From the NCBI GenBank assembly GCA_030153385.1, contig JASKJN010000010.1:1-36048 (forward strand): a DNA stretch of 36,048 bases, in the 5' to 3' direction. Numbering within the stretch: position 1 is the first letter of the stretch; the number at the start of each line of letters is the position of its first letter. The DNA comes from Archaeoglobaceae archaeon. GTDB taxonomy: Archaea; Halobacteriota; Archaeoglobi; Archaeoglobales; Archaeoglobaceae. Of the stretch, positions 6,290 through 25,917 are shown piece after piece. The notes under the pieces were generated by a model. The model saw only the letters and a program-made list of their open reading frames with translations, was not told the DNA's origin and did not search any database. The position numbers and the translations under genes are program-made.

Positions 6290-7314
6290 GGCTTATAATT
6301 GACGGATTCGGAAAATTTGTTGGAGTCGAGAATGGAATGATAGTGGTTAAAGAAAAGAAGCAAGTTCTCAGAAAGATAAAAGCAGAAGAGCTGAAACAGC
6401 TTATAATTGCTGGAAAGTCTGCGATAAGCAGCGACGCTCTAAGATTGCTTGCAGAAAACGGTGTTGACGTTGTTATTTTAAGCGGTAATGAGATCGTTGG
6501 AAGGCTTAGCCATCCGCTCATCGGAACTGTAAAAACCCGCAGAGAGCAATACCTTGCTTACTACGACAGCAGAGGAGTTTTTATTGCGAAAGAATTTGTT
6601 AAAGCAAAGTTGAAGAATCAGAGCAACTTTTTGCTTAATCTGGCAAAAGCAAGAAGAGAAAGTAATCCAACGTTAGCTGAAAAGCTTGTTAAAGCAAAAG
6701 AAGCGATAGAAGAAAAAATTGTCGCTCTTAATTCAATTGATGGCAATAAAATTGATGATGTTCGGGATGAGATCCTTGGAATTGAAGGAGTTGCTTCAGA
6801 AATCTACTGGAATGCAATAGCTTCAATCATTCCACAAGAATACCTTTTCTATGGAAGGAGAGGCGATTATAGCCCGAGATTTGCACACGACATTGTCAAC
6901 GCAATGCTGAACTATGGCTACGCAATTTTGCATGCGGAATGTCTTAAAGCAGTTGAGCTTGCTGGGCTCGATCCTTACGCTGGATTCCTGCATGCAGACA
7001 GGTCAGGAAGGACTTCGATTTCGATAGATCTCATGGAATGCTTTAGGCAGGTTGTAGTGGACAGAAGCGTCCTAAAGCTTGTAACGCTGTCTAAAGTGAA
7101 GCCAGAAGATTGCAGAATAGAGAACTTTGTCTGCATGCTGAAGGATGAAGCCAAAAAGAAGCTAATTTCAGAAGTTATGGAGAAGCTAGACACCAAAACG
7201 CAGTATAAAGGAAGGAATATGTCCATTTCTGCTGTGATCCTAAGCCAAGCTCGAGAGATTGCCTCATATCTGAGAGGCGATGGCACGTATGAAGCTTTTA
7301 CACAGAAATGGTAA
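6286..7314 (+). CDS. cas1: CRISPR-associated endonuclease Cas1
   Basis: Cas1 motifs: ..GVASEIYWNAI, GFLHADRSGRTSISIDLMECFRQVVVD; starts MRLIIDGFGKFVGVENGMIVV. Confidence 0.95.
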   Translation: MRLIIDGFGKFVGVENGMIVVKEKKQVLRKIKAEELKQLIIAGKSAISSDALRLLAENGVDVVILSGNEIVGRLSHPLIGTVKTRREQYLAYYDSRGVFIAKEFVKAKLKNQSNFLLNLAKARRESNPTLAEKLVKAKEAIEEKIVALNSIDGNKIDDVRDEILGIEGVASEIYWNAIASIIPQEYLFYGRRGDYSPRFAHDIVNAMLNYGYAILHAECLKAVELAGLDPYAGFLHADRSGRTSISIDLMECFRQVVVDRSVLKLVTLSKVKPEDCRIENFVCMLKDEAKKKLISEVMEKLDTKTQYKGRNMSISAVILSQAREIASYLRGDGTYEAFTQKW

Positions 7315-7846
7315 GCTTGATGTGAGCGATGTCGTGCAGTTTCTGTACTGCCCAAGAAAGGTTTACTTCATGAAGATCGCTGGCTTCAGAATTACGAAGC
7401 CAAAGATGGAAGAAGGAAAGGTAGAGCAGGAGAAAGCTTTGGAGAAGCTTGAAAAAATTGCTGAAAAACTTGGAGGAAAGCTTTTGAAAAACGTTCCACT
7501 TGAAAGCGAAAAATACGGGCTGAAAGGTATTCTTGATGCCTTAATAGTTGCCGAAGAGCTTTTGCCCGTAGATGTTAAGCTCTCAAAGTTCAGCTCGATC
7601 TCATACGCTTGGAAAATGCAGATGACAGCCTACAGCCTTCTTGTCGAAGAAAAGTTTGATAAGATCGTCAAGAAGGCATGCATATTCTTAAACGGAAAGC
7701 TTAAGGAAATTCCAATAACGCCAGAAGACAAAAAGAATCTTGAAAGAGTTCTTGAGCAGATATGGCTGCTGCTGGAAACTGAAAAATATCCCACAGTTAT
7801 CAAATCAAAAAAGTGCGGATACTGCGAGATGCAAAGGTTCTGCTAA
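7289..7846 (+). CDS. cas4: CRISPR-associated exonuclease Cas4
   Basis: VSDVVQFLYCPRKVYFMKI, PVDVKLSKF.., C-terminal KKCGYCEMQRFC iron-sulfur cysteines. In-frame ATG at 7280 also possible. Confidence 0.93.
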   Translation: MKLLHRNGKLDVSDVVQFLYCPRKVYFMKIAGFRITKPKMEEGKVEQEKALEKLEKIAEKLGGKLLKNVPLESEKYGLKGILDALIVAEELLPVDVKLSKFSSISYAWKMQMTAYSLLVEEKFDKIVKKACIFLNGKLKEIPITPEDKKNLERVLEQIWLLLETEKYPTVIKSKKCGYCEMQRFC

Positions 7847-8127
7847 AGTATTTCGAGCTTTTTCTCTTTAACAAGCTCAACTCCAGTATTGCTTATCACG
7901 ATCGCAGATGAGGAGCATCGCTGGCAGAGCGGAATTATGAAGATGCAGTCGTGTTCATCCTTGATAAACTTCAAAACCTGTCTCGCAAGAACATCTCTAT
8001 CATTCGGATTCAATTCTCCACGAAAAGCAGAATACTGAACTCTTGTAAGTCCAAATTTTTCAAGAAGCTTTGAAAGTCTCGTGCGATTTCCATCATCTGT
8101 TATATCGTAAACAACGAGATGAAGCAT
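7843..8127 (-). CDS. cas2: CRISPR-associated endoribonuclease Cas2
   Basis: MLHLVVYDITDDGNRTRLSKLLEKFGLTRVQYSAFRGEL; typical Cas2 size and fold motif. Stop codon overlaps cas4 stop tail-to-tail. Confidence 0.95.
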   Translation of the reverse strand: MLHLVVYDITDDGNRTRLSKLLEKFGLTRVQYSAFRGELNPNDRDVLARQVLKFIKDEHDCIFIIPLCQRCSSSAIVISNTGVELVKEKKLEIL

Positions 8128-8130
8128 AAG

Positions 8131-8871
8131 CTAAACTCTATAAAGTTCGACGAACTCATCAACTACCTTGCTGAACTCCGTTTTCTTCCCCTTCGCCCCT
8201 CTATAATCGCAAACAACAAGTGCTGTTGTAGTTGCGACCATCATCTTCCTAAAATTCGCATCTTTCTGAAATTTGTCCCATATTCGTTTGTTTAACCCCT
8301 TGTTTAATCCTTCGAACTCGAAAATCATTTTAGAACTTTTTACCCTTCCCTCTACGACAAATTTCTCGAGATCCGAATTCACACATTTCAAAGCTCTCTC
8401 AACACCTTCTAGTCCAAGAAATTCGAGATTTTTCAGCATTATTTCTTCATGTTCTGCCAGAATTTTCTTAAATTCTTCTTGCTTGGAAAACTTCAGCTCA
8501 AGTCTTTTCAGATTGTTAAGCCTACTCTTCACACCCATGGCATGGTGGTGGTAAAGAACTGCAGCTGCTGAAAGAAGATCTGAAATTCTCAAATTTTTCT
8601 CAAATTTTCCATAGTGCCATATAAACCTATCCAATATATAGGCTGAAAAAACTTCATGACCCGAAAAGCTTAGCTTACCCTTCTTTAAATTGTTTTGGTA
8701 GAATATTTTTCCGGAATCGTGGAAAATCGTAGCAACTTTGAGGTCTAATTCGGCTTTTGAAACTATTCGCCAAAATCTCGTATTCTTTAGCTCTTCCAAC
8801 GACTTCAAACATTCTTCGATATGCTCTTCAAGGCTCTGCTCAAATTCTTCGCTTTTCCTTGCGTATATCAT
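8131..8871 (-). CDS. Cas3'' HD nuclease
   Basis: HD signature ATIFHDSGKIFYQ, AAAVLYHHHAMG; adjacent and overlapping Cas3' helicase. Confidence 0.88.
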   Translation of the reverse strand: MIYARKSEEFEQSLEEHIEECLKSLEELKNTRFWRIVSKAELDLKVATIFHDSGKIFYQNNLKKGKLSFSGHEVFSAYILDRFIWHYGKFEKNLRISDLLSAAAVLYHHHAMGVKSRLNNLKRLELKFSKQEEFKKILAEHEEIMLKNLEFLGLEGVERALKCVNSDLEKFVVEGRVKSSKMIFEFEGLNKGLNKRIWDKFQKDANFRKMMVATTTALVVCDYRGAKGKKTEFSKVVDEFVELYRV

Positions 8872-10550
8872 TTCACCACCAGTCCAAATTCAGAACTGTA
8901 GCTGGCATCAACAAGAAAAGCGATCACTCTTTTTCTGAGCATGAATTCCAGAAGCTTTTCAGCTTCCGTATTGCGATGGAGAAACTTCAGCTCTTCTTTA
9001 CCCATAAACTGCATTCTCTCGCTTACTGCACCGCTCAGCGATGGTATTATTTTCAGAAATGTTTCGTAAGCCATAGAAACCACAAAATTCCTCGAAAACT
9101 CTGAAGTGCTGACTTCCGATATCTCTTCTCTTTTCAAAAAGCTCACGGGTATCTGAAGTCCTTCTCTGACAAAGCTTCCACCCATCTTAAAAAGCAAACC
9201 CAAAGCTTTCTTCGGAGCAGTTTCAAGGTTAAGGAAGATTCTTTCAAAACTTTCAATAATTCTTAGGTCAAATTCAAAGTCTTCTGGCCTGTAAACTGAA
9301 TTTATCATTGCTGAGAATCCATTATCACCTATGGGAAGATGGACGTTCATCTTGGGATTGTCATGAAGCCATGTAAGAGTTTTCTTTGTCAACTCAGCAT
9401 CGTATACTGTGTAATACTCCGAATTAAAATCTTCCTCAAACCAGACGTGAATTCTTCCTTCTTTTTCATCGAAGAAGCGTAAAAACCTTCCAAATCGCTG
9501 GATCATGGAATTTGCTGGAGAAATTTCAGTTATCATCAGATCCGAAGATAAATCTACTCCCGCCTCTATAACCTGCGTCGAGACTATCACAAAATCCCTC
9601 TCTTTCTGCAACTTCCTAATCTCCTCAATCTTTCTTTCCCTGTCCCTTTCAGTAAAGCGAGAATGTATTAGAAGGGTGTTCTTGGAGACATTTTTAAGAT
9701 CGTCCAAGTTCTCTCGGTAAAATTCTATGGCATCTGCTACGGTGTTGAAAACTATTAAGACTCTTGAAAACTCCGAACTCTTTATCCAACCCATTATTTT
9801 CCCGTATTTATCATCTTTGCAGTCTTCAACGCGGATCTCGTATTTCTTGCTCATCCTTTCACTGCAGAAATCTGGATCATGCCTTTCATCGAACTCAACG
9901 AATTCAATCTTCTCTCTTCCAACTTCTTCAAGCCTTTTCTTCAGCGCATCTGGCAATGTTGCAGACATGAATACCGCTCTTTGCTCAAAATCCCTGGAGA
10001 TCTTCATCAGCGATGCGAGAAAGCTGAGAGACTTTGTTGAATCTGCAAGCAAGTGCACTTCATCGAGAACAAGATTTGAAAGCAAAACAGAAGCCCAAGA
10101 AAAGAAGTAATGACCCAGGCTTCTTTCTTCAGCAACCTTTTCAATCGTTTCTGGAGGTATTCCAAAGATGTTCAAAGCCAAGGTATCAACAGTTGTGAGC
10201 GTTATCGGTTTTATAAGGTATGGCGAGTCGGGATTGTGCATGTACCTCTTTCCCAAAATTTCTTTCGTCGCTTTGCTATCTAAAAGCTTTTCAAACTTTG
10301 CAAACTGATCTTCGATCAGCGTTCTAAGCGGGAATGCAACTATGCATTTAAAGTCATTAACAAGAGAGTTTAGAGCTATAGTTGCTGAGATCGTGGACTT
10401 CCCATATCCCGTTGGAGCTTCTACAACAAAGAAATTCTTACTATCCCAATTCCTTTCAATTTCGTTGATCGCATGCTCTACGAAAGGTCTTGGCTTGCCC
10501 TTAAACCATTTCTTCGAAACTTCGTCAAGACGTTCCAACAACATATTCAA
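8868..10550 (-). CDS. Cas3' helicase
   Basis: Walker A APTGYGKST, DEVH box (LVLDEVHLLADS), SATLP, STQVIEAGVDLS, QRFGRFLRF. Confidence 0.93.
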   Translation of the reverse strand: MNMLLERLDEVSKKWFKGKPRPFVEHAINEIERNWDSKNFFVVEAPTGYGKSTISATIALNSLVNDFKCIVAFPLRTLIEDQFAKFEKLLDSKATKEILGKRYMHNPDSPYLIKPITLTTVDTLALNIFGIPPETIEKVAEERSLGHYFFSWASVLLSNLVLDEVHLLADSTKSLSFLASLMKISRDFEQRAVFMSATLPDALKKRLEEVGREKIEFVEFDERHDPDFCSERMSKKYEIRVEDCKDDKYGKIMGWIKSSEFSRVLIVFNTVADAIEFYRENLDDLKNVSKNTLLIHSRFTERDRERKIEEIRKLQKERDFVIVSTQVIEAGVDLSSDLMITEISPANSMIQRFGRFLRFFDEKEGRIHVWFEEDFNSEYYTVYDAELTKKTLTWLHDNPKMNVHLPIGDNGFSAMINSVYRPEDFEFDLRIIESFERIFLNLETAPKKALGLLFKMGGSFVREGLQIPVSFLKREEISEVSTSEFSRNFVVSMAYETFLKIIPSLSGAVSERMQFMGKEELKFLHRNTEAEKLLEFMLRKRVIAFLVDASYSSEFGLVVK

Positions 10551-11728
10551 AACCTCGCCAGTATACGCCTATATCTTCCTGCTCTATGAGTTTCTCTTTT
10601 ATCTTTACTGTTCTCGAGTTTTCTTCGAGCTTCTTCAAGCCCTCTAAGAAATCCGAAGAATCCCTGAGCATCACCAAGCATGACGAATCTGTATAAGCTC
10701 TGAACTGCTGAGAGAACATTTTCCGCCTCGCTGTATCTGTTTCTTTTGTTGAGCGACGATAGAGCTTCCATGAGGATTTTATCTGGAGATAACGCATCAG
10801 ACAGATTCTCTATAAACTTATCCGCATCTTTGAAGTATTTTCCCGCAATTTCGTAAAAAGAAATGCTTTCGTAAATCTCCAGCGGTATCGTTTCGTATAT
10901 TTTGTAGGTCTGACCTTCTGGGGCTATCTTGAATAGAAACAGAGAAAATTTATCGAGATTTTCAGAATCCATCAGTCTTCTAATTTCAAGATTTGTTGCT
11001 AACTCGATTGCCATAAGCTCATTTAGCGGATATTTTTCGATTATTTTTCTCAACTCATCCGTTGCAATTTTTTTGAGCTTGAAATACCTGTCAACCAAGT
11101 CCTTGCTTCCTTCAACGAGCAGTTTTAGAACTTCATCTGGGGAGAAGAAGAGGAAATAATTATAGTTCTGATCCTGCTGTCGGACGTTGAGAATGAAAGA
11201 AGAATAAATACCAAGGAGAGATATTAGAGCAACTTCTGGAGAAATGTAGAAGGTTAACTGCTTGGATGTGTATGGCGTTTCAAGAGAAGAGAAGCCAGTA
11301 TATCTGTCTATCTTAAACAGCTGTGGAGCAGCTATTCCTTCGCTCTTTCTTTTTAAATCAAGTAAATTGTCTTTACCAAAAATCCTAAACTGTAGCTCGA
11401 CAAGCTCTTTCTCTCTGATTATGCCAGAATTGTCTTTCAGCATCTTGATCAGATCGTAAAAAGTTTTTCTGCTCTTCAAGTTTGATCCAAGTTTTTCAAA
11501 GAGCTTGGAATTAAGATTGTCATTTCCAGCCATTGCAATGCGAACGTTTTCGATCTTCTCATATTCCAGCTCAGAGTAAGCTTTCGAAAGGAAATTAGGC
11601 TTGAAATCTATCTCTCTTAAATCAAATCGCTGTGCATGATCCTTATGAATGAGATAAAGCAATCCTTCGTAAATCACAGAGCTTAGAAAGGTTGAATCTG
11701 CTGGCATCAGAAGCTTCACTTTCGGCAT
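10547..11728 (-). CDS. Type I-A large subunit Cas8a-like (Csa4-like)
   Basis: Position between cas3' and cas5-like remnant in a type I-A operon; MPKVKLLMPADSTFLSSVIYEGLLYL. Family assigned mainly by context. Confidence 0.55.
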   Translation of the reverse strand: MPKVKLLMPADSTFLSSVIYEGLLYLIHKDHAQRFDLREIDFKPNFLSKAYSELEYEKIENVRIAMAGNDNLNSKLFEKLGSNLKSRKTFYDLIKMLKDNSGIIREKELVELQFRIFGKDNLLDLKRKSEGIAAPQLFKIDRYTGFSSLETPYTSKQLTFYISPEVALISLLGIYSSFILNVRQQDQNYNYFLFFSPDEVLKLLVEGSKDLVDRYFKLKKIATDELRKIIEKYPLNELMAIELATNLEIRRLMDSENLDKFSLFLFKIAPEGQTYKIYETIPLEIYESISFYEIAGKYFKDADKFIENLSDALSPDKILMEALSSLNKRNRYSEAENVLSAVQSLYRFVMLGDAQGFFGFLRGLEEARRKLENSKDKRETHRAGRYRRILARF

Positions 11729-12447: not shown

Positions 12448-13665
12448 TTACTGCACACTTTTTATCAGTTCCTTTAACTGCTGCAAGATTTCTTTTGCAT
12501 CTTCCTGCTTAATTCTTTTAACGTCTACAGCATGCCTGCTCATCCCGCAATGGGCTAAGTCATTACGAAGCTGAGATATTTGGCTCCACAATTCAGCAAC
12601 ATCATCGCTCTTGGGCAACTTCTCAAACCATACTGGCACTTCCGCTGGATTCTGTTGAACTCTCTGACCAGCTGCGCCGAGTGCCTTTTCCACTTCTTGA
12701 CGATGATCTCTGTTAAGCCAATCGAAATCGCCTTTCTGCAATATGACCCAGCTAACAACCCACTCTCTCGCCAGCAAAATCGCCTGAACAAGCAAACCTT
12801 TCTCAACGAGGTGCTCAATTATCATCAGTTGCTTCTGGCAGTTTTCACGATCTAAGCGTTCGGGTTCATCGTAAGCGAATCTTGCAACTTCTGAACGAAC
12901 CTGCTCCAAGATGACAGCAAACGGTTTAGCCCATCGCTGAACTTCTGAAGTTGTTTCTTTCAGCTTTGACTTCAATTCATCAGCAAAGTGCATAACATCA
13001 CGTGGATGGGCAAGATGCAGAGCCTGAGAAAGATTTTCTAACTTTTTAGCAACAGACTTTAACTGCTTCGGCAAATCGCTGCTTGCTTGCGTTTTCCATG
13101 CCTGCTGGTGGATGCTTCGCAATCGATCTGCAAGCAAGGTTGCATCGCTGCGCTGAAGGAAAAACTCCGCCCCATTGAGCCAGTCAAGCAGATCTAAAAG
13201 CGGTGTAAGATCAAAGATTGGAGCTTTACCATTTTCCCGTGCCTCGTAAGCGCCATAGATTATGCGTTCAATCGTTACGCTTTTCGTTCGCCTGAGGTAA
13301 GCAGCAACGGCGAAAACGATCATTGGGATAGAGCGGAAAGCATGGGTGATGTCTAAAAGCACCGCATCGTTCTCCTCAACCGATGCTGCCACGTGGTCAA
13401 AAATTTCCCAAAGTTCCGCTTCAGACTTACCTTCAGGGATGTCCACAGGCTGTAGCAGGTCACCCAATTGCTGAGAGAGTACTTGAAAATGTTCATGCGT
13501 CTTTGCCTGCGGTGTTACGAAAACCAGCACCTTCTCAGGCTTAAAAATGCGAGCAACGGCTTCAGGGAAAAGATGAGATGTGTAAGAGCGTTCTCCTCGT
13601 TCATCCCGCCAGACGTAAGTTACTGGCTCATATCTTCCCGTGCCAAGAAAAGTTAACACCTTCAT
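12448..13665 (-). CDS. Csx1/Csx2 (TM1812-like) CARF-HEPN ribonuclease
   Basis: N-terminal MKVLTFLGTGRYEPVTYVW.., LLDITHAFRSIPM; C-terminal HEPN motif RNDLAH (R-x4-H). Confidence 0.8.
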   Translation of the reverse strand: MKVLTFLGTGRYEPVTYVWRDERGERSYTSHLFPEAVARIFKPEKVLVFVTPQAKTHEHFQVLSQQLGDLLQPVDIPEGKSEAELWEIFDHVAASVEENDAVLLDITHAFRSIPMIVFAVAAYLRRTKSVTIERIIYGAYEARENGKAPIFDLTPLLDLLDWLNGAEFFLQRSDATLLADRLRSIHQQAWKTQASSDLPKQLKSVAKKLENLSQALHLAHPRDVMHFADELKSKLKETTSEVQRWAKPFAVILEQVRSEVARFAYDEPERLDRENCQKQLMIIEHLVEKGLLVQAILLAREWVVSWVILQKGDFDWLNRDHRQEVEKALGAAGQRVQQNPAEVPVWFEKLPKSDDVAELWSQISQLRNDLAHCGMSRHAVDVKRIKQEDAKEILQQLKELIKSVQ

Positions 13666-13668
13666 GGC

Positions 13669-14688
13669 TTACACCTCCCAGTAGCCGTAATCAGCACTCG
13701 TCTTAGCGCCAATGCCTAAATCGCTTAATGCGCTCTTTAGCCACCTTTCGGCGTCATCAAGCAAGTCATCAGCTTGTTTGGTGCGTGCAGCGATGGCGAA
13801 CAAATAGGGCGTTTCGCTCACCGTCAGGAAAAATACGGGATTGGGTGATTCCCAATCAGCGGGGGGTGTCTCGCCTTTCGTGCGATAATAATTCGGGTAA
13901 TGCGGGTTCATGATGTCCAGTTGGAACTTTGGTGTCTCAGTCGGGATAGCATCCAGAAAAATAACACCACCTGCCTGCTTTGTCGTCCCAAAAACTTTCA
14001 CAAATGGCCGACATTTTTCCTTAAACTCTTCAAGGCTCAGAGATCTTATCTGTGCATCTTGAGGTAAGGATTGGTTTTTGAGCAATTGTTTATGTAATTT
14101 TGATTGTTGATTTTCATCCTCAAGGTTCAAAAGCAACGCTTCAAACTCAGCCAGTGGCGTGGGTTTTTTGTTTGCCTCCATTTTTGCCGCTTCAGCGGGA
14201 GAGAACATTGGAATGCCCAACTCCTGTGCCAGTTCAAAAAGAGCATAAGCCCGTGCTGCGCCTTTCAAAGCGCTACCAGGGATGATTGGCAAACCAAACA
14301 GGCGATGCAAGGTGATGCTTGTCTCCAACACATGCGCTGCTCCTAATCCAACGACAAAACGCCAAAAAGGTTTGGCTTCAATGCGTTTCATAACAAAACC
14401 CTGTCTCTCAAACCACTGTAGCATCGCTTCGTGACGCTGTTTTAAAGCATCAACGTACTCTTGCAAGTAAGGTTCTTGGGCCAGCTGCATTATCCGTTTG
14501 CGGCGCTTGGCATCTTGTGTGAGTTCCCAAGTCCGTGAATTGACAGGCAGAAAGCGATCCAACCACAGCCCAATGTTATCGCAGAGATTGCCGTTGGCCG
14601 ATACTTGAATCACCTCACGAGGCAAAGGCACGAGTTTTTCTGGTTCCCCTTGTCTTCGTGTTCCCCGCTGTTTTCTCTTTTCCATCAT
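13669..14688 (-). CDS. cmr6: Type III-B RAMP protein Cmr6
   Basis: FVVGLGAAHVLETSITLHRLFGLPIIPGSALKGAARAYA; last Cmr gene of the operon. Confidence 0.88.
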   Translation of the reverse strand: MMEKRKQRGTRRQGEPEKLVPLPREVIQVSANGNLCDNIGLWLDRFLPVNSRTWELTQDAKRRKRIMQLAQEPYLQEYVDALKQRHEAMLQWFERQGFVMKRIEAKPFWRFVVGLGAAHVLETSITLHRLFGLPIIPGSALKGAARAYALFELAQELGIPMFSPAEAAKMEANKKPTPLAEFEALLLNLEDENQQSKLHKQLLKNQSLPQDAQIRSLSLEEFKEKCRPFVKVFGTTKQAGGVIFLDAIPTETPKFQLDIMNPHYPNYYRTKGETPPADWESPNPVFFLTVSETPYLFAIAARTKQADDLLDDAERWLKSALSDLGIGAKTSADYGYWEV

Positions 14689-15182
14689 TCTTCACTCCCC
14701 TTCGGCAGTTCCGCTTCGACGAAACGCTTGAGCCATTGAAGTAGCGCCAAAGCTTCCATCGTCGCCAAACGATATTGCTGGCTTGTAGCGGTTTTGACGA
14801 GCCAGTCCAGAAAGTCACCGTTGATGCTGAGTTGCTTTTGCAACCAACCCGCAAGATGCTGGTAAAGGATTTCATGCTCGCTATCAGGTTCCCCCTTTCC
14901 CTTCGCTTTCAGAAATGCCAGCGTCTGCCCCAAGCCATTGGTAAGAATGTAGGAAGGGAGTCTGCGCACCACTGAGCCGTATTTGCCTTTCCACTCGTCC
15001 CCACTCTTTTGAAGATTTTGCAGGCGTTTTGCCAATTCCTTCTTGCGTCTTTGGTCTTGCTCTTTTTCGATCGCCATCTTTAATTGCTTAATAGCGTGGT
15101 CAAGACATTGCTGAACACATTCCCATGCATACTTTGCTCGCTCCTGCTCTAGTGTTCTCAAGGCAGATGGCATGATGTTCAC
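14685..15182 (-). CDS. cmr5: Type III-B small subunit Cmr5
   Basis: LEQERAKYAWECVQ.., YILTNGLGQTLAFLKAKG; between cmr4 and cmr6. Confidence 0.88.
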   Translation of the reverse strand: MNIMPSALRTLEQERAKYAWECVQQCLDHAIKQLKMAIEKEQDQRRKKELAKRLQNLQKSGDEWKGKYGSVVRRLPSYILTNGLGQTLAFLKAKGKGEPDSEHEILYQHLAGWLQKQLSINGDFLDWLVKTATSQQYRLATMEALALLQWLKRFVEAELPKGSEE

Positions 15183-16153
15183 CTCCTCACAATTGAAGGA
15201 ACATTCAACCGAACCTTCACGATGCCTCGTCCGATCGTTTCATCGCCGCCGATTTGTAGGCGGTCAAGATAGGGTTCTTCATCACACCTCTTCGTCAATC
15301 CCTCAAGGAACTCCAACACTTTCTGTGCAGACGGTTTGCCGTTTTCTTTGAATTCGTCGGGCACTATATCCTTTGGTGCTAACGGTTTGCTAATGAAGAT
15401 GGGAGCGTAAAGGAGGGTTTCGCTGGGTAAGTGCTCTTCAATCCACGGACCTTCAGCAACGCTCTTGGTTTCTTTATCTAATTGCACACGGGTCTGTATC
15501 TCCGTCGCCAACTGTGTGAAATCACGAAAGGCATCGTCAGGCAGTATGACGAAGCGTTCGGGAAGCCATTCGCGGAAGGGCTTGTATTCATCGCTTTGTG
15601 GGAAAGCGTTATCTGCAAGCCATTTGGCAATCTTTTCCACATTTTTGTCAACCTCTGCATCGAAGGCAAACTCTTCCAGCACTACTTTGCCATTGGCAAC
15701 TATTGTGTTATCACTGGCAATGAGAGCTTGGTTGTTATCTACTTTCGGTACGTTCCAGTCCACTTTAAACCCGGCAGCAGTCATCTCACGCTTGAGCCTT
15801 TCCAACACCAATGGGCAAGTTGTCCATGCGAAGACGCCGACAAGTGAACGGACAGGGAACAGCAGCAAGCGGGCATCATGAGGGCTGACACATCCAGTAT
15901 GCTCACTGGCTTTCTCTGTCTCGGGTCCGAACAGAACTTTGACTTTCTCCTCAGCCGTTGCATCTCGTTTTCGTTTCAGAATGCTCAAAGTTTCCTTCCG
16001 CAAAACTCCCTTTAGGCTGGATGCTTGAACAATTGGCAATCCCGTGATGCGCTCCCTTTGGATTGGCAAATCTACAATACTCAAACTTGTACCTGCCCCT
16101 GCATGGATAGGCGTTTCGCAATACATAAACAAAATTGCCGCTTTTTCAAACAT
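15179..16153 (-). CDS. cmr4: Type III-B backbone RAMP Cmr4
   Basis: ILFMYCETPIHAGAGTSLSIVDLPIQRERITGLPIVQASSLKGVLR; QIGGDETIGRGIVKV glycine-rich loop. Confidence 0.92.
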   Translation of the reverse strand: MFEKAAILFMYCETPIHAGAGTSLSIVDLPIQRERITGLPIVQASSLKGVLRKETLSILKRKRDATAEEKVKVLFGPETEKASEHTGCVSPHDARLLLFPVRSLVGVFAWTTCPLVLERLKREMTAAGFKVDWNVPKVDNNQALIASDNTIVANGKVVLEEFAFDAEVDKNVEKIAKWLADNAFPQSDEYKPFREWLPERFVILPDDAFRDFTQLATEIQTRVQLDKETKSVAEGPWIEEHLPSETLLYAPIFISKPLAPKDIVPDEFKENGKPSAQKVLEFLEGLTKRCDEEPYLDRLQIGGDETIGRGIVKVRLNVPSIVRR

Positions 16154-16163
16154 CTATACCACC

Positions 16164-17350
16164 TCACCATAAACCGATCAAAGCAACACCCAAACCAATT
16201 TGCGCCCAAGCATTAGCGCCACCGTTTTGCTGTCTTACTTCATCTGGCGTTTCTGTGAAGGCAAAGTCATCGGCAAATGTAATGGGTTCATCAGCTTCAA
16301 AGAAATAGACGGCACCAGCTGGAACAAACGAGCGCATTGGTTTGGGAATTTTCTTAGCAACGTCAAAGCCGCCAAAGCGTTGAGCACGAGGAATGGCGGC
16401 TCCAATAAGGCGAACCGGTGCATTAAAAATCTTTGACCAGTCACCATCCTTTGGCTGCCAGCCGCCGGAGAACCAAGCAGGTGTCAAGAGCACGACTTTG
16501 AAGCGTTTCACGTTGAATTGTGCGATTGGTGGCAGTGGGTGAATAACCTCGTAAGTCGCTGCCTTACCTTCACCACCAAACCTCAGGAAGCCTTTCTCAG
16601 TCATTTGCACGCCATTTACTTCCGCCCAGAGTGCCACATCATCTTTGAGCCGAACGAATTTTGCCTGATAAAGCATTCCCTCTTGCGTTGTGCCTCTCTC
16701 TCCAATAGCGATGCCAAAGCGTGGCTCAAATGTGAATAACTCGCTTGACGAGACAACTTGGTTTGGTGGCTGACCTTGTAAGTAACGCATCCACTCACTT
16801 TCTGGTAACCAACCCTCCGCCTCCTTAATACGGTGATCCGTTTGCATCCAAAGAAGTTTCAAGCCTTTCGGCAAATTCGTTGCAAAAGGTAAATCTTCGG
16901 GGTGCAACAATCCGAACTCAACCTTAGGACGAGTAGATTCATCATTAGACCATACGAACTCTGCACCGCACTTCTTACAGGACTTTGTTTTAGGCGGATT
17001 TTTGTGCCCACATGATCGGCATACGAGTGCCACTTCCATGACATCGGCAGGCATCGGGATTAGCCGTTCCCACTTGCCATCTTTGTAGCGCATCAACAAT
17101 GGTCCGCAAAGTCGTAACTTTCCGAAGTTGTCGCCATAACCGACATCGGGGTCAGGTTTGCCAAGCAGAGCGAATTCCGTTGGATGATGCCTTTATCAAC
17201 AAGCACCCTTGTACGGATAGCGCCTTGGAGCGTAAAGGGGGAAGGAGGAAAGATAGAACCAGCAATGTGGTCTTCTTTAGCATTAAAAGGCTTTCCATCA
17301 CGAAAAAGCCAAACATCTACAGGCTTAATTGCAATCTGCACTTTGCTCAC
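16164..17350 (-). pseudogene. cmr3: Type III-B RAMP Cmr3, with a single-base frameshift near 17165-17182 and an internal zinc-ribbon insertion
   Basis: ORF 17093-17350 (MSKVQIAIKPVDVWLFRDGKPFNAKEDHIAGSIFPPSPFTLQGAIRTRVL) is the Cmr3 N-terminus; ORF 16164-17099 the remainder. Shifted reading across the junction gives EFALLGKPDPDVGYGDNFGKLRLCGPLLMRYKDG. Confidence 0.85.
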
Positions 17351-17762
17351 CCCTCAAAAGAGAATGACATTTTTCTAATACGAACTCAGCTTTCTTAAGT
17401 GCTTCATCGGCGTCATCAGCGCTGTAAAGCGTTTCTGGCGGAACTCCGCTCTCTTCATCTCCGTAAAAACTCAACTCCCTCTCAGCCCTCAAAGCACGAG
17501 ATATGGAAGCAAGTTGGGGTATGAACTTCCTGAAATCTGGTGGAAACTTTTCAGCGTGCTCCTTCAGCGTTGGTCCAACGTCATGGATTCGAGGCGGTTG
17601 GATGCCGACAAAAATCAACGCACTTTTCAATGCCAGCTCAACCGCTTCTTGGCAACGTCTCATAACCAAGTTCCAAATGCCCCTCTTTCTAAAATTCCTC
17701 GCTTCATCAAGGATAACTTCTGCACGCTGAAGCATGAGTTGAGCATTTTCCTTGTTCTTCAA
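17325..17762 (-). CDS. HEPN-domain protein (PF05168-like)
   Basis: 145 aa; LMLQRAEVILDEARNFRKRGIWNLVMRRCQEAVELALKSALIFVGIQPPRIHDVGPTL, AERELSFYGDEESGVPPETLYSADDADEALKKAEFVLE; no R-x4-H-x-Y motif seen. Confidence 0.85.
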   Translation of the reverse strand: MKNKENAQLMLQRAEVILDEARNFRKRGIWNLVMRRCQEAVELALKSALIFVGIQPPRIHDVGPTLKEHAEKFPPDFRKFIPQLASISRALRAERELSFYGDEESGVPPETLYSADDADEALKKAEFVLEKCHSLLRGEQSADCN

Positions 17763-18268
17763 AGTTCAATCACCTCCCCTGCTTTCAAATCTGGTTTAAG
17801 GTCGTAGTAGCGGATTTTGCCGATCATCTTTCTTTGCGCTCCAAGTTCTTTCAACCGCTTCTGCAGCCTTTCAAAAACTCCACGTAAAAAGCCGTCATCA
17901 TAAAGTAGCACCGCATCTTCAAGCATGTCAAGGTAAACCCAGCGGAACTTATCAGCTTCATCCTTCGTGTAAACAAGTTCGGTGAAGTCAGCGTAAATTC
18001 CCTGTTTCCAAAGCCTTTCCAATTCGCTTTGGAGTTTCTCCCTTATTGGCTCAAGCAAAGCGTGGCGCTTGAACATTCCTTTGGGCAACTCCTTGCAAAC
18101 TATGAGTAAATCAATGTCTGACTTCGTCGTCGCCTCACCTCTCGCAACTGAGCCGAAAAGAGCAATAGAGACAAGATTTTCGCCCAGATACTCCTTTGCC
18201 AACTGAGCGTATCTTTCAGCAAGACTTCTTAAAACCCTATTAAGTTCCGCTTGATCCATACTCACCAC
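17759..18268 (-). CDS. MNT-type nucleotidyltransferase-domain protein
   Basis: IALFGSVARGEATTKSDIDLLIV = GS-x10-D-x-D nucleotidyltransferase motif; 4-nt overlap with HEPN gene; start overlaps the cmr2 3' end (ATG 18259 also possible). Confidence 0.88.
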   Translation of the reverse strand: MVSMDQAELNRVLRSLAERYAQLAKEYLGENLVSIALFGSVARGEATTKSDIDLLIVCKELPKGMFKRHALLEPIREKLQSELERLWKQGIYADFTELVYTKDEADKFRWVYLDMLEDAVLLYDDGFLRGVFERLQKRLKELGAQRKMIGKIRYYDLKPDLKAGEVIEL

Positions 18269-20999
18269 CTGCCAAAAACCGCAGGAAGGTTAGCCATTTC
18301 GCCAACTCCACAATACCTGCCTGTGGACGTGTCATATCAAAGGGATCTTTACTGTCAGCATGGGTGTCAAGAGCATTTGCAAGGCAAGCAAGTTTCTTTG
18401 CCCAGTCTTCAGCTTCTTTTTCGGAAAGGCCTGGTTTCTTCCGTCTCAAAAGTAAACGCTTGATTTCTGCTTCTTGGGCCTTTCTCTCCAATTCTGCCAA
18501 CATAAACGATTCTCTCATCAAGTCACTTGCAAACCCACGTGCAATTTTATCTCGCATCAATTCCGCAAAATCCAGCAACAATTGCAGGGTGTCATTGATA
18601 CCTTGTTCAGGATAAGAAAACTTTGCACCCATCTGCACTTGCTCTCCTGAGCGCTTGAGCCATCTTATGCAAATGGCGTTGCGACCATAGTGTTTTTTGG
18701 CATTTTTCTCAGCCTCTTGTCCTTGACGGAGCACATCATGAAGCGGGTGCAAGCGGTGGGCGACAACAATGCCAACACTGGCTGTTGCTCTGTTTCCCAT
18801 TGTGAGCAACTGCCTTCCTTGCCAGTCCACCCAACCTGTCCACTTTTGACCACCAAGCTCTACAAAGACGTCTTTGTCTCGCAATTCCGCTTCACCTGAG
18901 AACAACGCTCGCAATTTGTGAGCAGCAGGCAATGCATCCCTAAGGGGTAAGAGAGCGAGCACATCATCCCCGCCAGCATAAACGAGCCTTCCAGCATAAA
19001 GTTCCTCAACGACGAACGGCACAAAGTTCAGAGCGAAGTTAGCAAGTGCCATACTTATGGATGCGTGAAGGGAAGGCGACATCAACCGTCTTGTTTCAAG
19101 CATTTGTTGCCGTTGAGAGTCGTGAGCAAGTTGTTCACGAACCTCTGCGTGCAAAATTTCGGCGAATTTGGGTAAGCCCTCATGCGTTCCACTCAGCCAT
19201 TTACCCATCTCGTCACCATCCATGAATAGAACAGCGTAGTAATCGGTTGGTTGAATTCCGACGGCTTCGTAAAGCTTTCGTAAAATCTCTTTTAGTCCTT
19301 CTGCCCCCTCTTTTCTCAACCCGATGCCATGCACTCGTTTAAGGCGCTCTGGATCATAACTTTCGGTGAACAACCATTCACCATCGAATTCCAACAGCTT
19401 TTCTGCCACTCCATCTACTGCTGTTTTCTTCAACTTAGGAATATCCATGCCTCCGCGAGCAATCTTTTCCAGATCTTTGTTTTTGTCGATCCTTTCCAGC
19501 AATTCAGCAACAAATGCTTTTGCATATTTCCATCTCTCAAATAGCGTTTCCACAAAATTGGCAGCGGCGATGCTGTCAGTGGATGGGAATTCAGTGGGGA
19601 TATTTAGATCTTTTTCGAAGACGAACTTTGCAGCGAAACGCTTGATCGTGCAGATAGCGCATAGCCTTTCACGACCATCGGCGGCTATATCACCAGGGAA
19701 GTTCTTCGCCACTTTCTGCCAGAATTCCTTTTCTTTGTTCCACCAGTCATGCTCAATCTGCTCTCCTAAATCGCTCAAAACCTGCCGTTCACCACAAATT
19801 GAGCATTTTCCTGCAGGCTCTTCGATTGCATTGAAATTTCGCAATGCTTTTCGTGCCCCCAGTGCTTTTTCAGTCAATTCATAGCACGCATCATAGACAG
19901 AACCAAGATTGGGCTCATAAGCACCCTTTGCTTCTTTAAGCCACTTTACAAATCGATCGCTGCCCGTCAGTTGTTGATAACGCTCAGCGATTTTTTGAGC
20001 GGTTTCATCCCACTTGTAAATCGCCCAGTAAACTTCTGGAAACTGCTCCAATTGACGCTCCCAAATGGTCTTTGAAGCTTCAAATTCAGGAACTTTTTGG
20101 CGAATTTCTTCCCAAACTTGCTCTGCCAATCGTCGCCATTCGTTACGTACCGCTTCTTCTGCTTGTTTTGCCAAATCTTCTGCCTGTTCAGCTGGCACGA
20201 TGGCGAAGAAGCGGTTGGGTAAAGTGGCAAGACGAAGTTGTTCTGGTGAAGGTTTTTCAGATAGCACTCGTTTTTCATACAACCAATAATCAACAAGTGG
20301 TTGGTAAAGCAGCGATGGATAGATCACGTGATCAGGTCCGAGTTTTTCAGCGATAACCTTGATTGCATGCCAGGTTAAGTAAGAAAGCAGAAAACTGCCC
20401 ATCCAAAGGTCACGGGTTTTACGAGCTGAAGAGATGAAACTTTGAACTGGTCCGATTGTGAACACAAGTGTTGCGGGCTCAGGACAGTTGGCAAAAGCGC
20501 TCGTAACACGGGCATGATGGAGCAGTGGATGATCAGGAATGCGGGTATCGGCGGGAAGCAAACTCCAAGGCACGCTTGCATCATTTTTGGCGAGTTCCTC
20601 TTCCAAGCATCGCCAGAAGAGCAGAAAACGCTTTTTCGGGTCATTGGTTTTTTGGCTTAAAGCCTTGACAACTTCGGCTTGAGCCTTGGATGATTTTTGC
20701 GATTCAACATGGAGCGAAGCCTTTTGAGCAGATAGCGGGTGGATGATGCAATCGCTGGGTGCAAGAGTACCCTTGGGGAAATTCAGCCTATCTGCAGCCG
20801 ATGCAATGGTGTCTGCCCGTTTAGCAGCATCCACCCATTTTGATGGTATGTTTGTCGGCTGGACATCTGGTAATCCATGCAACGCAAATTTCCTAAGCTC
20901 CTTAGATCGCTCTTCATGGCCTGGAATGTCCAGCACCTTATCAGGAGGATCGTGAAGCAGGGCTACTAACTTTCTTTGCCACCAATGAGCGTTCACCAA
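18240..20999 (-). CDS. cmr2: Cas10/Cmr2 with intact GGDD palm motif
   Basis: LVALLHDPPDKVLDIPGHEERSKE (HD-like), FTIGPVQSFISSARKTRDLWMGSFLLSYL, zinc-binding CSICGE..CAICTIK, YAGGDDVLALLPL. Confidence 0.95.
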   Translation of the reverse strand: MVNAHWWQRKLVALLHDPPDKVLDIPGHEERSKELRKFALHGLPDVQPTNIPSKWVDAAKRADTIASAADRLNFPKGTLAPSDCIIHPLSAQKASLHVESQKSSKAQAEVVKALSQKTNDPKKRFLLFWRCLEEELAKNDASVPWSLLPADTRIPDHPLLHHARVTSAFANCPEPATLVFTIGPVQSFISSARKTRDLWMGSFLLSYLTWHAIKVIAEKLGPDHVIYPSLLYQPLVDYWLYEKRVLSEKPSPEQLRLATLPNRFFAIVPAEQAEDLAKQAEEAVRNEWRRLAEQVWEEIRQKVPEFEASKTIWERQLEQFPEVYWAIYKWDETAQKIAERYQQLTGSDRFVKWLKEAKGAYEPNLGSVYDACYELTEKALGARKALRNFNAIEEPAGKCSICGERQVLSDLGEQIEHDWWNKEKEFWQKVAKNFPGDIAADGRERLCAICTIKRFAAKFVFEKDLNIPTEFPSTDSIAAANFVETLFERWKYAKAFVAELLERIDKNKDLEKIARGGMDIPKLKKTAVDGVAEKLLEFDGEWLFTESYDPERLKRVHGIGLRKEGAEGLKEILRKLYEAVGIQPTDYYAVLFMDGDEMGKWLSGTHEGLPKFAEILHAEVREQLAHDSQRQQMLETRRLMSPSLHASISMALANFALNFVPFVVEELYAGRLVYAGGDDVLALLPLRDALPAAHKLRALFSGEAELRDKDVFVELGGQKWTGWVDWQGRQLLTMGNRATASVGIVVAHRLHPLHDVLRQGQEAEKNAKKHYGRNAICIRWLKRSGEQVQMGAKFSYPEQGINDTLQLLLDFAELMRDKIARGFASDLMRESFMLAELERKAQEAEIKRLLLRRKKPGLSEKEAEDWAKKLACLANALDTHADSKDPFDMTRPQAGIVELAKWLTFLRFLAGGEYGSSGT

Positions 21000-22171
21000 T
21001 TTTTCACCTCCAAAAAAGGCGCAATCTGATGCTCTAAATGACTCAGAAAATTATTCAACAAATTATCGCTCGGTTGCTCAGTGAAAACCTTTTGATCATC
21101 GTAACGTAGTTGCAAGCGTTCGTTTTCAGGCAAAAATTGCGAATGGAAGTGGATTAGAACAAGCACAAATTTGCCGTTAGCAAGTTTTGTCACTCGCACG
21201 ATAAGCGGGGATGCTCTCCGATTATGTTTTTCACCTTCTAATGTCGCACGCTTTTTAAGTGAGCTGAAGTAAAAGACGATAGGCAAGCCGAAGACAGCCC
21301 GCTGAACGGATTCCAGTTCGTCGCTACCTTGAAGGACGGCTTTCACATTGCTGTAATCAGGTTGACGACGATTGCGGAATTGCTGCATCACTTGACCGAA
21401 AGTGTCAAGAGCTTCTGCCCAGTTGTTAAATTCGTGATTAATGATATTTATTCTGCAATAGTTGGGATGCAAGATATCAAAAGAGGGGGTTGCTTGAAAA
21501 CTCAATGATAATGAACCGTTGAAAGTTTCGGCTGCCCATTTTCGCAACTTGTGCAATCCATCTTGCAATGTCTCTTGAAGTTGCTTTGGTGTTTGAGCTT
21601 GGACAGTCAATGATGGTAACGATGGCTCGTTCCAGTCGGTAGAAACTACTTGTAAATTCCCACCTCCTTTCCTCGACCGCATCCCCAAACCGCCTAAGTG
21701 TGTGAGCAACCAAAGCGCTGCGTAAGCAGCTTGCAAGGCCTTTGCGTCCTGAACTCCATTCCTCTGGCGGATAGTGCAAGTGAATCGAAGACCATCTGCA
21801 ACGGCTTGACGCTCTCGTTCACTGCCAACTCCGCGTGCCCCGAAGAACAGGTAACCAATGCCTTTTCGGTCGCGACCTTTTCGGTCACGAGAAATTTGAG
21901 AGTAACTAACTTTGCTCAGGTAAGGGTGAGATAATTGTAACACAACTGATGAAGCATGTTCGGTGCTGCCAAAGACTTGACTTTCATAGCGAAAGATATC
22001 ATCTGGCTTATCGCCCAAAACTCCGCCAAGCAACGCTCGGAACCAGAAACGCAGTGCTCCACGAAAAGATGCTGCCCTTAGCTCTGGCTCGTCTCGTGGG
22101 TCTCGTGGATTAGAGCCACCTAAAAACAGCGGTGTGACAGTTTCCAAAGTAGCTCGAAATTTTGAAATCAT
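20993..22171 (-). CDS. cmr1: Type III-B RAMP Cmr1
   Basis: MISKFRATLETVTPLFLGGSNPRD..ELRAASFRGALRFWFRALLGG; GMRSRKGGGNLQVVS; first gene of the operon (ATG 22171; upstream in-frame GTG 22174). Confidence 0.93.
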   Translation of the reverse strand: MISKFRATLETVTPLFLGGSNPRDPRDEPELRAASFRGALRFWFRALLGGVLGDKPDDIFRYESQVFGSTEHASSVVLQLSHPYLSKVSYSQISRDRKGRDRKGIGYLFFGARGVGSERERQAVADGLRFTCTIRQRNGVQDAKALQAAYAALWLLTHLGGLGMRSRKGGGNLQVVSTDWNEPSLPSLTVQAQTPKQLQETLQDGLHKLRKWAAETFNGSLSLSFQATPSFDILHPNYCRINIINHEFNNWAEALDTFGQVMQQFRNRRQPDYSNVKAVLQGSDELESVQRAVFGLPIVFYFSSLKKRATLEGEKHNRRASPLIVRVTKLANGKFVLVLIHFHSQFLPENERLQLRYDDQKVFTEQPSDNLLNNFLSHLEHQIAPFLEVKNW

Positions 22172-22190
22172 CACTTATAAGTAAAAAATA

Positions 22191-22812: not shown

Positions 22813-23974
22813 GCTATTACGAATTCTTAAGAGTAGATTCAACAAGAAGAGCATGTGAATATAAGGGAAAAAATTCTGTGAAAGTAGAGCAGTAGTTAAA
22901 ACAATTCATGAAATAGAGGTAAAATTCAAATCTATAAGCGAGATTCACGTTGGAAGTGGAAGAAAGAGGTTTCAGGATGGAAAGATCTTGTTGGTCCACA
23001 TTAAAGATTCCAATGGTTTTCCTGTTATTCCTGCATCGAGCTTTAAAGGTGCTGTTTCAACAAACTTCTTAGCTCTATCTGGCGATTCAAAACTCACATC
23101 AAACCTTTTTGGTGCCCCAGGATACCTATCCAAGGTTTTCTTTCACGATATTAAAGCATCTAATCCAAAGACTGTCTTCAAAGAAGTTCTGAGACTATGG
23201 CAACCAAATATCAGAAAACAAAACCATGTGAAATTTTATATAAGAAGGGCACTAAAAACAAAATTTTTTGGAATTGCAGAATGCATACCAAGAGACACTA
23301 TATTGAGCGCGAAAATAGTTGGGCATAATTTAAACGATGTTGAGATGGGGGGCATACTTTGCTCTCTTGGCTATGGCTTTGAAGATGCCACATTCAAAAT
23401 TGGTTACGCTAAGCCACAAGGATTCGGCCAGATGATTCTAAATGATTTGAAAATCTACAGATACAACTTTAACGGCTTCAAATTAGAAAAAATAGAAGAG
23501 GAGAGAGATGCATTTGTTGAAAAGTTCAGGGAGCATGTAGAGAGGAGAGGATTTAGATGCAAGAGCCAAGATAGTATTTGCAAAGGTGATTTGATGGACC
23601 CAAAAAAAGCTGCAAAGGACCTCTACAGCGAGCTTTTTGGAGTCTCCAGCAATCCAGAAATAAAAAGCAGAATTCACGGTGCTGTAGCCAAAGCGATAAG
23701 GTATGCAAGCTATGATCTGCGTATAGCAAAAAACTATGAAGTGATATTAAAAGAGTGTTTGCAGATGGCTTTTGTGGATGGGAGAATAGTTGACAGAGCT
23801 GGATTAGGCGAATCTTCAAAGGTAATAGATGATGTCATATCAAAATTGATGCCCAGAATTAAGGGCAAAGATCTGGACTGGATATACAGGTTCTTTGGAT
23901 ACTATATCATGATCGAAGAGATCGAGAAGAAAAAGAAAGAAGAGAGCGAAAAAGGAAAAGATAAGGTGGGGTAA
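22809..23974 (+). pseudogene. Type III RAMP-superfamily protein with a frameshift in an A6 run (22868-22873)
   Basis: ATG 22809 MSYYEFLRVDSTRRACEYKG..; adding one A joins to KKFCESRAVVKTIHEIEVKFKSISEIHVGSGRKRFQDGKILLVHIKDSNGFPVIPASSFKGAVSTNFLALSG (RAMP N-terminal motifs). The supplied ORF at 22988 starts on an internal TTG. Confidence 0.72.
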
Positions 23975-24721
23975 ATGAAGACTGCAGTTATAGCTCCTCT
24001 CGGCCTAAGTCCACCGGTTGTAACAAGCTTTATTGAAGGAATTGGTGTGAAAGTAAATGATCTCGTAGTTCTAACTACCGAAAATGAGGATGTAAAGGCT
24101 GGATTTGAGCTTATAAGAGTGGGAATGAGCCTGAAATATCCAAAAATCAGAGTTCATGAAGTAACGCTTCCATTTGAAGATGTGAACACAACTGAAGACA
24201 ATCTCAGATTCATGTCGATATGTGCAAAGGTTATCAGAGAAGAGAGGGAAAAATACGGATGCGATAAAATCATTCTTAACATTGCTGGTGGCAGGAAAAA
24301 CATGTGCATAACCCTTTCATTGCTCGGGCAGATAATGGGCGTTGATGGAGTTTACCATGTTGTAAGCAAGGATATCAGAGTCGTAAACGAACTCCTTGAG
24401 AGGCTGAGAGAAGATATAAGGATGATCGCAAAAGTAGAAGAGAAGGAAGAGAAGATAAAAATTTACAGAGAGAAGGAAAGGTACTTCAACAGTCTTCTTT
24501 TCCCGGATAGAAAGGATTACGAAATAGTCAGAATCCCCACGCTACCTTATCCAAAAGACTACTTGGCAAGAATTGTAACACTTACACTCCAAGATGTTGA
24601 AAGTCTTTCGAATGAAGAGAAGAGAATGCTTGAATCCCACGGAATTTTAGAGAAAGTTGGTACAAAGTTCAGGATTACGGAGTATGGAAGAAAATTTTTG
24701 GAAGTGCTGATCGGGCGATGA
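23975..24721 (+). CDS. CARF-domain protein (Csx14/NE0113-like) with C-terminal winged-helix region
   Basis: MKTAVIAPLGLSPPVVTSFIEGIGVKVNDLVVLTTEN.., KIILNIAGGRKNMCITLSLLGQ; C-terminal MLESHGILEKVGTKFRITEYGRKFL wHTH-like. Confidence 0.72.
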   Translation: MKTAVIAPLGLSPPVVTSFIEGIGVKVNDLVVLTTENEDVKAGFELIRVGMSLKYPKIRVHEVTLPFEDVNTTEDNLRFMSICAKVIREEREKYGCDKIILNIAGGRKNMCITLSLLGQIMGVDGVYHVVSKDIRVVNELLERLREDIRMIAKVEEKEEKIKIYREKERYFNSLLFPDRKDYEIVRIPTLPYPKDYLARIVTLTLQDVESLSNEEKRMLESHGILEKVGTKFRITEYGRKFLEVLIGR

Positions 24722-25917
24722 TCGTCCAAATATGTGGCGATCCAAAGCAGTATTCCAAAGTGAATTTCAAAATAGGAGAAAAAGAGGTTGAAAGTTGTTT
24801 TTGCTCAGAAGTTCTCAGGGAACTCAGAAATGAAGAAGTCGTACTTTTTGCACCAAAAAGCCTGATAGAAAAGAATGAAATAGGGAGCATCGAAGTTCTG
24901 AAAGATAAAATCTCAGAGAAGGGGCTTAAATCTTTTGAAATCTTCGAAATACCTTCAGTTGGAATTTATGGAGAAAGAAGATACTACGCAAAGTTCGACG
25001 ACGTTTTAGCTTCGATTTTTCTAAAAATCTTTGAGAAGAGACCAAAAAGCATTCTTGTAGATCCATCCACTGGCCAAAACTTTTACAGCATAGCTTTGCT
25101 CGAAGCTGTTAGAAGTTACGCAACATACAGAAAACTCGAAAGAATTCTTCAAGACGGGGGCGATTTTGAAGCTAAAATGGTCTCCTATCCGCCCATAATC
25201 AGAGATCTTACAAAAACTGCAGAAGTTGAGTTTCATAAAATTCCAGCCAAAGCATTCTTTTCTTTTCCAGAAAACACAAATTTGGACGAAATAATCATCA
25301 GCAAAAATGCAAAAGCTAAAGAAGAGATTGGAAAAAAGTACCATAATTCAAAATCTGATTTCAGAAAATTGCTTATAGAAACAAAGATAGCTTTCAATGC
25401 AATCCGCTACAACGTGCCTCTCGCTTTTTATGAGCTGGTAAACTTCGAATTCAAAATTGATGACATCGAGAGGAGCATATTTGAGATGGCAAAAGAGGTC
25501 GTGGAGAGAGAAGTAAACCTGAGGTTCGTCGTTCTTTCAGAGGTTTTCTACGTCACGGCAATGGCGAAGAGCTTCCAAGAATTCAAGAAATCTTTGTCTG
25601 AGCCATGCACAGATGAGATAAAGGAGAAATTTTCAGAAGTTTATAAAAAAGTAGGATTAGATGTCAATGGGCGCTTCCTTGAGAGGGATATTTCGGAAAT
25701 AAAGGGGGAGCTGAAGAACAAAAAGGTTGGAGAGAAAGGAAAACTAAAAGAAATTAAAGGAACTAAAGGAAGCAGCGATATAGAAAGAAACTTCTTCGCT
25801 CACAGCGGATTTTTATATGAGTATACTGAGTTCGAAATCAAAGAACAGGAAATTTGCCTTTACTGGATAAAAGATAAGCATAGAGAAATAAAAAATTGGT
25901 TTAAAAAATTGGAATAA
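24718..25917 (+). CDS. Csx1-family CARF-HEPN ribonuclease
   Basis: ILVDPSTGQNFYSIALLEAVRSYATYR (CARF-like) and C-terminal ERNFFAHSGF (R-x4-H HEPN motif). Confidence 0.75.
   Translation: MIVQICGDPKQYSKVNFKIGEKEVESCFCSEVLRELRNEEVVLFAPKSLIEKNEIGSIEVLKDKISEKGLKSFEIFEIPSVGIYGERRYYAKFDDVLASIFLKIFEKRPKSILVDPSTGQNFYSIALLEAVRSYATYRKLERILQDGGDFEAKMVSYPPIIRDLTKTAEVEFHKIPAKAFFSFPENTNLDEIIISKNAKAKEEIGKKYHNSKSDFRKLLIETKIAFNAIRYNVPLAFYELVNFEFKIDDIERSIFEMAKEVVEREVNLRFVVLSEVFYVTAMAKSFQEFKKSLSEPCTDEIKEKFSEVYKKVGLDVNGRFLERDISEIKGELKNKKVGEKGKLKEIKGTKGSSDIERNFFAHSGFLYEYTEFEIKEQEICLYWIKDKHREIKNWFKKLE

Follow-up and report, generated by a model that had tools for sequence, protein, structure and literature searches.

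What an MNT-HEPN gene pair is doing inside the Cmr (type III-B CRISPR) operon of an archaeon is the question raised by this locus. The window, i.e., the whole stretch of DNA analysed here (36,048 nucleotides), is a complete 36-kb contig belonging to a 1.4-Mb archaeal draft genome, and the Topo VI A, TiaS and PGF-CTERM genes present on it show that the contig itself is archaeal. Open reading frames together with Pfam and PADLOC gave the minus-strand order cmr1, cmr2, MNT (minimal nucleotidyltransferase), HEPN, cmr3, cmr4, cmr5, cmr6 and a Csx1-type CARF-HEPN gene (Table 1), with a GC content of 46-48% in the Cmr operon versus 38-39% in the adjoining flanks.

Table 1. Genes of the Cmr operon in the window, with the evidence for each assignment.
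Feature	Position	Strand	Evidence
cmr1	20993..22174	-	RAMPs PF03787 3e-25; PADLOC Cmr1
cmr2/cas10	18240..20999	-	Cmr2_N 1e-39, Cas10 palm2; HD motif (HDPPDK) and GGDD present
MNT (minimal nucleotidyltransferase), 169 aa	17759..18268	-	PF01909 NTP_transf_2 2.5e-11
HEPN, class II, 145 aa	17325..17762	-	PF05168 1.7e-21
cmr3, 5' part	17093..17350	-	Cas_Cmr3 profile 2-49; alignment with intact relatives
cmr3, 3' part, different frame	16164..17099	-	Cas_Cmr3 profile 79-367
cmr4	15179..16153	-	PADLOC Cmr4 3e-78
cmr5	14685..15182	-	PF09701 6e-37
cmr6	13669..14688	-	PADLOC Cmr6 2.5e-54
Csx1-type CARF-HEPN effector, operon end	12448..13665	-	PADLOC CARF_HEPN 4e-153; RNDLAH (R-x4-H) present

The initial annotation had placed the pair between cmr2 and cmr3 on the minus strand with overlaps on both sides, and this was borne out by the reading frames and the Pfam matches. 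The MNT begins with a GTG codon and overlaps cmr2 by 29 nt (20 nt when counted from an alternative ATG at 18259), the HEPN begins with TTG and shares 4 nt with the MNT stop, and the start of cmr3 overlaps the end of the HEPN by 26 nt. In the sister genome G007 all three junctions around the pair are clean 4-nt overlaps. The proposed translational coupling of the pair inside the operon is supported. The arrangement of two small overlapping genes with the MNT first is that of a toxin-antitoxin (TA)-like module. An intact in-frame cmr3 was also considered for the window; however, alignment with relatives confirmed that a frameshift, missed by the initial annotation, is real in this assembly, the frame being broken at about 17170-17195 with the two halves in separate frames. 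G007, G009 and G397 have the gene in one uninterrupted frame, no second cmr3 copy was found in the window's assembly, and the shift represents either a pseudogene or an assembly error.

Other genes of the window were recorded as well. Type I-A cas genes lie at 7280-11728 (cas4 on the plus strand; cas2, HD cas3'', cas3' helicase and cas8a on the minus strand), and a short RAMP gene (Csm3/Cas7-IIId-like), a Cas_NE0113 CARF gene with an HTH and a Csx1 gene lie at 22988-25917 on the plus strand, divergent from the Cmr operon. Two adjoining genes for secreted or surface proteins occupy 2503-5329 (plus strand), one of them with a Kazal-type domain and a PGF-CTERM anchor, and a 21-nt repeat is found in this gene pair at 2846-2904. 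No CRISPR repeat array was found within the window.

To what kind of module do the two proteins belong? The MNT is of a long form (about 165 aa) and carries the GSx10DxD motif that had been claimed for it (G39 S40, D51, D53). Its AF2 model (pLDDT 88.5) found its best PDB matches by Foldseek in the MntA antitoxins 7bxo and 7ae9, which come from solved HEPN-MNT complexes; HalB was also among the structural matches. The GSx10DxD motif is kept in all compared members of the subfamily but one, the MNT of G397, where the first Asp of DxD is replaced by Val. A third catalytic Asp was dropped as a required feature, since this position varies across the whole subfamily and is Asn in the MNT of G007 and G009. 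The HEPN had been described as PF05168-like and devoid of R-x4-H-x-Y, correctly so, as a regular-expression search found no R-x4-6-H across its 145 aa, and the RX4HXY RNase motif that marks class I HepT/MntA is thus absent. A PF05168 HEPN without this motif but with a retained tyrosine, next to a PF01909 partner with GSX10DXD, places the pair in the class II group of PMC7641770. No biochemical study of this group was known to the authors of that paper, and the HEPN of the window is therefore only a putative toxin. In Foldseek, its AF2 model (pLDDT 92) groups with the archaeal and Thermus HEPN proteins 1wol, 1ufb and AF0298/2hsb. Tyr100, within ERELSFYGDEE, is present in every aligned sequence covering the site and aligns with the position of the AMPylated tyrosine. 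Pfam and PADLOC scans found no CARF-like or SAVED domain in either protein, that is, no cyclic oligoadenylate (cOA)-sensing domain of the kind that marks type III CARF/SAVED accessories, and the HEPN had no match in the plasmid collection PLSDB.

The component parts thus belong to known families, and the pair was compared with each of them. It resembles HepT/MntA (class I, type VII TA; PMC7641770, PMC11586414) in the MNT lying upstream of the HEPN, the gene overlap, GSx10DxD, a HEPN tyrosine conserved at the equivalent position and an MNT fold closest to the MntA structures; however, it differs in its PF05168 HEPN without RX4HXY, in its position inside a cas operon and in the long MNT with a conserved C-terminal LKPD..GE tail. 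With class II HEPN/MNT pairs (PF05168/PF01909; COG2250-type, HEPN_T) it shares the Pfam pair, the lack of RX4HXY, the conserved Tyr and the archaeal/thermophile distribution, but the motif R-x2-R-E-x-S-[FM]-Y-G of the window subfamily replaces their TRYPD, and two clades of this subfamily are confined to cas operons, which is not so of ordinary class II pairs. The Csx1/Csm6 CARF-HEPN effectors likewise combine the HEPN superfamily with a type III operon, but the HEPN of the window has no CARF, belongs to another HEPN family and has no R-x4-6-H, and the true Csx1 is the separate last gene of the operon.

The same slot was then found occupied in relatives. Cmr3 was surveyed with PF09700 over 397 genomes of the phylum and was present in 27. 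The pair fills the cmr2-cmr3 slot in G007 and G009, sister species of the same genus, with 66-68% identity. In G397, a MAG labelled Candidatus Poribacteria, the order MNT-HEPN-cmr3-cmr4 was recovered at 50-69% identity on a 3-kb contig (QNBQ01000415.1) whose binning is uncertain, and a separate contig of this MAG holds cmr1 and most of cmr2; a scan of genome contigs with a single protein returned one locus only, in this same MAG. Synonymous sites between the window and G007 are saturated in most genes, hence dN was compared rather than dN/dS, with values of 0.26 for the MNT, 0.24 for the HEPN, 0.24 for cmr4, 0.30 for cmr2, 0.38 for Csx1 and 0.55 for cmr1. The pair is under purifying selection comparable to that on the backbone protein Cmr4, the pattern expected of selection on function. 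A single C-to-A change has created a nonsense codon at Tyr113 of the G009 HEPN (L043:9612-10031), the sole difference from G007 in 423 nt of this gene, compared with up to 7% in other cmr genes. The pair is dispensable, as the Cmr operons of at least two genomes of the same family, G028 and G139, do without it. A class I HEPN (RNWLVHRY)-MNT pair was also observed in G007 and G009, directly 3' of cas1-cas2 (L174:3825-5207, L175).

With a profile built for the HEPN subfamily of the window, we scanned the phylum, its family and the G397 phylum, and classified 40 loci by their neighbouring cas genes. Ten of the 40 lie in cas operons and fall into two groups of the tree. Clade A, whose monophyly is obscured by the long-branch sequence G400_C175, comprises the window, G007, G009 and G397, all in the cmr2-cmr3 slot; it is one lineage, and its shared position may reflect passive co-inheritance. 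Clade B (UFBoot 98) has all six of its loci inside cas operons: a III-B operon after cmr3 in G115, a genome of another family; a Csx11 type III operon between a RAMP gene and cas3 in G161; an I-A-like operon in G013 (cas7a-cas5a / Cas8b2-like fragment-cmr1); and I-B operons between cas6 and cas8b in G183, G018 and G288. These operon types were checked with PADLOC and NCBIfam, save that of G018, for which home-made profiles were used. None of the remaining loci (0 of about 30, several with flanks of only 1-1.5 kb) is embedded in a cas operon, and among control pairs of ordinary PF05168 type, mostly from the same family, about 3% are (1 of about 31, in the Csx11 operon of G161). Fisher's test for the confinement of the clades gave P = 2e-11, a value overstated since the clades were defined after the tree had been seen, and the pre-defined test of the subfamily against the others gave P = 0.018. 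Recurrence in cas operons is thus beyond chance in a sample of one archaeal and one bacterial phylum. The initial annotation had held that a functional link would lack support if the arrangement were unique to this genome or if homologs lay at random loci; neither is the case, the slot being conserved in relatives and clade B occurring only in cas operons, and the proposed link to the CRISPR effector operon is real.

Further small modules were seen around these loci. The Csx11-type III operon of G161 holds two different MNT-HEPN pairs, before csx11 and before cas3 (L157:4146-4864, L133:5149-6046), and in the same genome an MNT with an adjoining degenerate HepT-like match directly follows cas5a of a type I-A operon (L176:4642-4938). 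A second small MNT stands beside the clade B pair in G018, G013 and G288 (L106, L128, L130), in the cas6-cas8b interval or downstream of cas5a; it is accompanied by a TRYPD-type HEPN in G018 and by a HEPN in G013.

Class I pairs have entered Cmr operons too. In G012, G026, G161 and G178 the cmr3-cmr4 interval holds an MntA-HepT pair with the HepT motif RDKLIHAY (RDKLIHTY in G012), preceded by a CARF gene after cmr3 and in G161 additionally by a Csx3-like gene; these pairs were captured by Cmr operons independently of the class II pair. In G115, a 447-aa frame between two cmr1 genes (L050:12311-14046) fuses Cmr1 to MntA with GSx10DxD kept; the next gene, which overlaps this frame by 4 nt, encodes a HepT-like PF08780 HEPN bearing RNELVHIY. 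The 27 Cmr-bearing genomes gave 199 matches to MNT-HEPN genes in 60 Mb, about 3.3 per Mb, from which about 0.8 would be expected within 27 Cmr operons; 9 were observed. This count excludes the pairs of G148, G286 and G390, which stand 4-6 kb downstream of cmr6 and are not embedded. The 9 represent at least 4 apparent independent insertions, and on events the Poisson P is about 0.009-0.02, which is modest evidence of enrichment in Cmr operons.

The reading we favour, with a probability of roughly 0.45, takes the pair for a class II MNT-HEPN module that is dedicated to CRISPR, from a lineage now carried stably in CRISPR effector operons, and that is putatively an AMPylation-controlled guard or addiction device. 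The MNT, translated just ahead of the HEPN from the same message, would use ATP to nucleotidylate Tyr100 of the HEPN, as MntA does to HepT (AMPylation precedent in PMC7641770), and this modification would keep the HEPN harmless. If the operon were lost, silenced or attacked, or if the nucleotide supply fell during infection, unmodified HEPN would arrest the cell. Since the HEPN has no canonical RNase site, the harm would come from non-catalytic binding of RNA or the ribosome, or from some unknown site. The module would in this way act without cOA, either as a guard of the CRISPR operon or as an element addicted to it. A TA module guarding CRISPR has a precedent in CreTA of type I-B (reviewed in PMC12737573), likewise a two-component module in a cas locus that is proposed to penalise CRISPR loss; however, CreTA consists of a pair of RNAs that Cascade represses, whereas both partners here are proteins and dependence on a Cas complex is only putative. 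Class I pairs with the RNase motif and class II pairs without it stand in equivalent places, so the operons seem to recruit a TA-like pair as such, and this, together with the lack of a general dependence on cOA (see below), favours a guard or addiction module. Counted against such a guard are the HEPN nonsense codon in G009, the loss of DxD in G397, the variable third acidic residue, the Cmr operons without the pair and the possible passive co-inheritance of clade A.

The main rival, which we consider doubtful, sees the pair as an addictive hitchhiker functionally unconnected with CRISPR: mobile MNT-HEPN modules of thermophiles would land in tolerant slots of defence operons and persist by cell addiction. 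MNT-HEPN genes are indeed abundant in these genomes and known as mobile two-gene modules (PMC2701414), the cmr3-cmr4 interval holds further variable genes such as the CARF and Csx3-like ones, and clade A is partly decayed. However, random landing fits poorly with the confinement of clade B to cas operons of four architectures against the low embedding of the controls, and the clean overlaps in G007, the low dN and the Cmr1-MntA fusion also speak against it. The fusion can be read in another way, namely that the MNT transfers nucleotides to a Cas protein or to crRNA, the HEPN serving as the subunit that binds the substrate, and so tunes the effector complex as a non-toxic regulator. The missing RNase motif and a HEPN fold akin to NTase substrate-binding subunits would suit such a regulator, and exaptation of inactive HEPNs as substrate-binding partners has been proposed (PMC3710099), but we regard it as improbable, because equivalent slots also hold class I pairs whose RNase motifs are intact, which makes TA rather than Cas modification the likelier common property, and because there is no Cas target common to types I and III and DxD is lost in G397.

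A cOA accessory that would react to, produce or eliminate the second messengers of Cas10 is very unlikely, despite an adjoining cas10 whose HD and GGDD motifs are intact, a Csx1 effector encoded in the same operon and HalB among the MNT matches (oligoadenylates are products of NTase folds in other defence systems), since neither CARF nor SAVED was found by Pfam and PADLOC and a cOA effector was rejected on the finding of clade B in type I-B operons. Type I operons, including I-B, are without Cas10, and the role of the pair therefore cannot generally depend on cOA. Of the original proposal of a type III accessory or addiction module, the addiction or TA-like part is the best fit, but a type III-specific or cOA-linked effector is not upheld.

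In the literature searched we found no description of MNT-HEPN pairs embedded in Cmr or cas operons; the accessory-gene surveys of 2018-2019 (Shah; Shmakov) lay outside its scope and may hold one. Beyond the guard or addiction reading of this one locus, a wider and rather tentative idea, which we think somewhat unlikely, is that this protein MNT-HEPN lineage may guard archaeal CRISPR-Cas operons in general, moving among I-A, I-B, III-B and Csx11-type III and killing or arresting cells that lose CRISPR or its control by means of an AMPylation switch on an RNase-dead HEPN. The two-gene module makes the older idea of a coupling between CRISPR immunity and dormancy directly testable, and through it one could find out the actual function of class II HEPNs, which are abundant in thermophiles and were biochemically unstudied as of PMC7641770.
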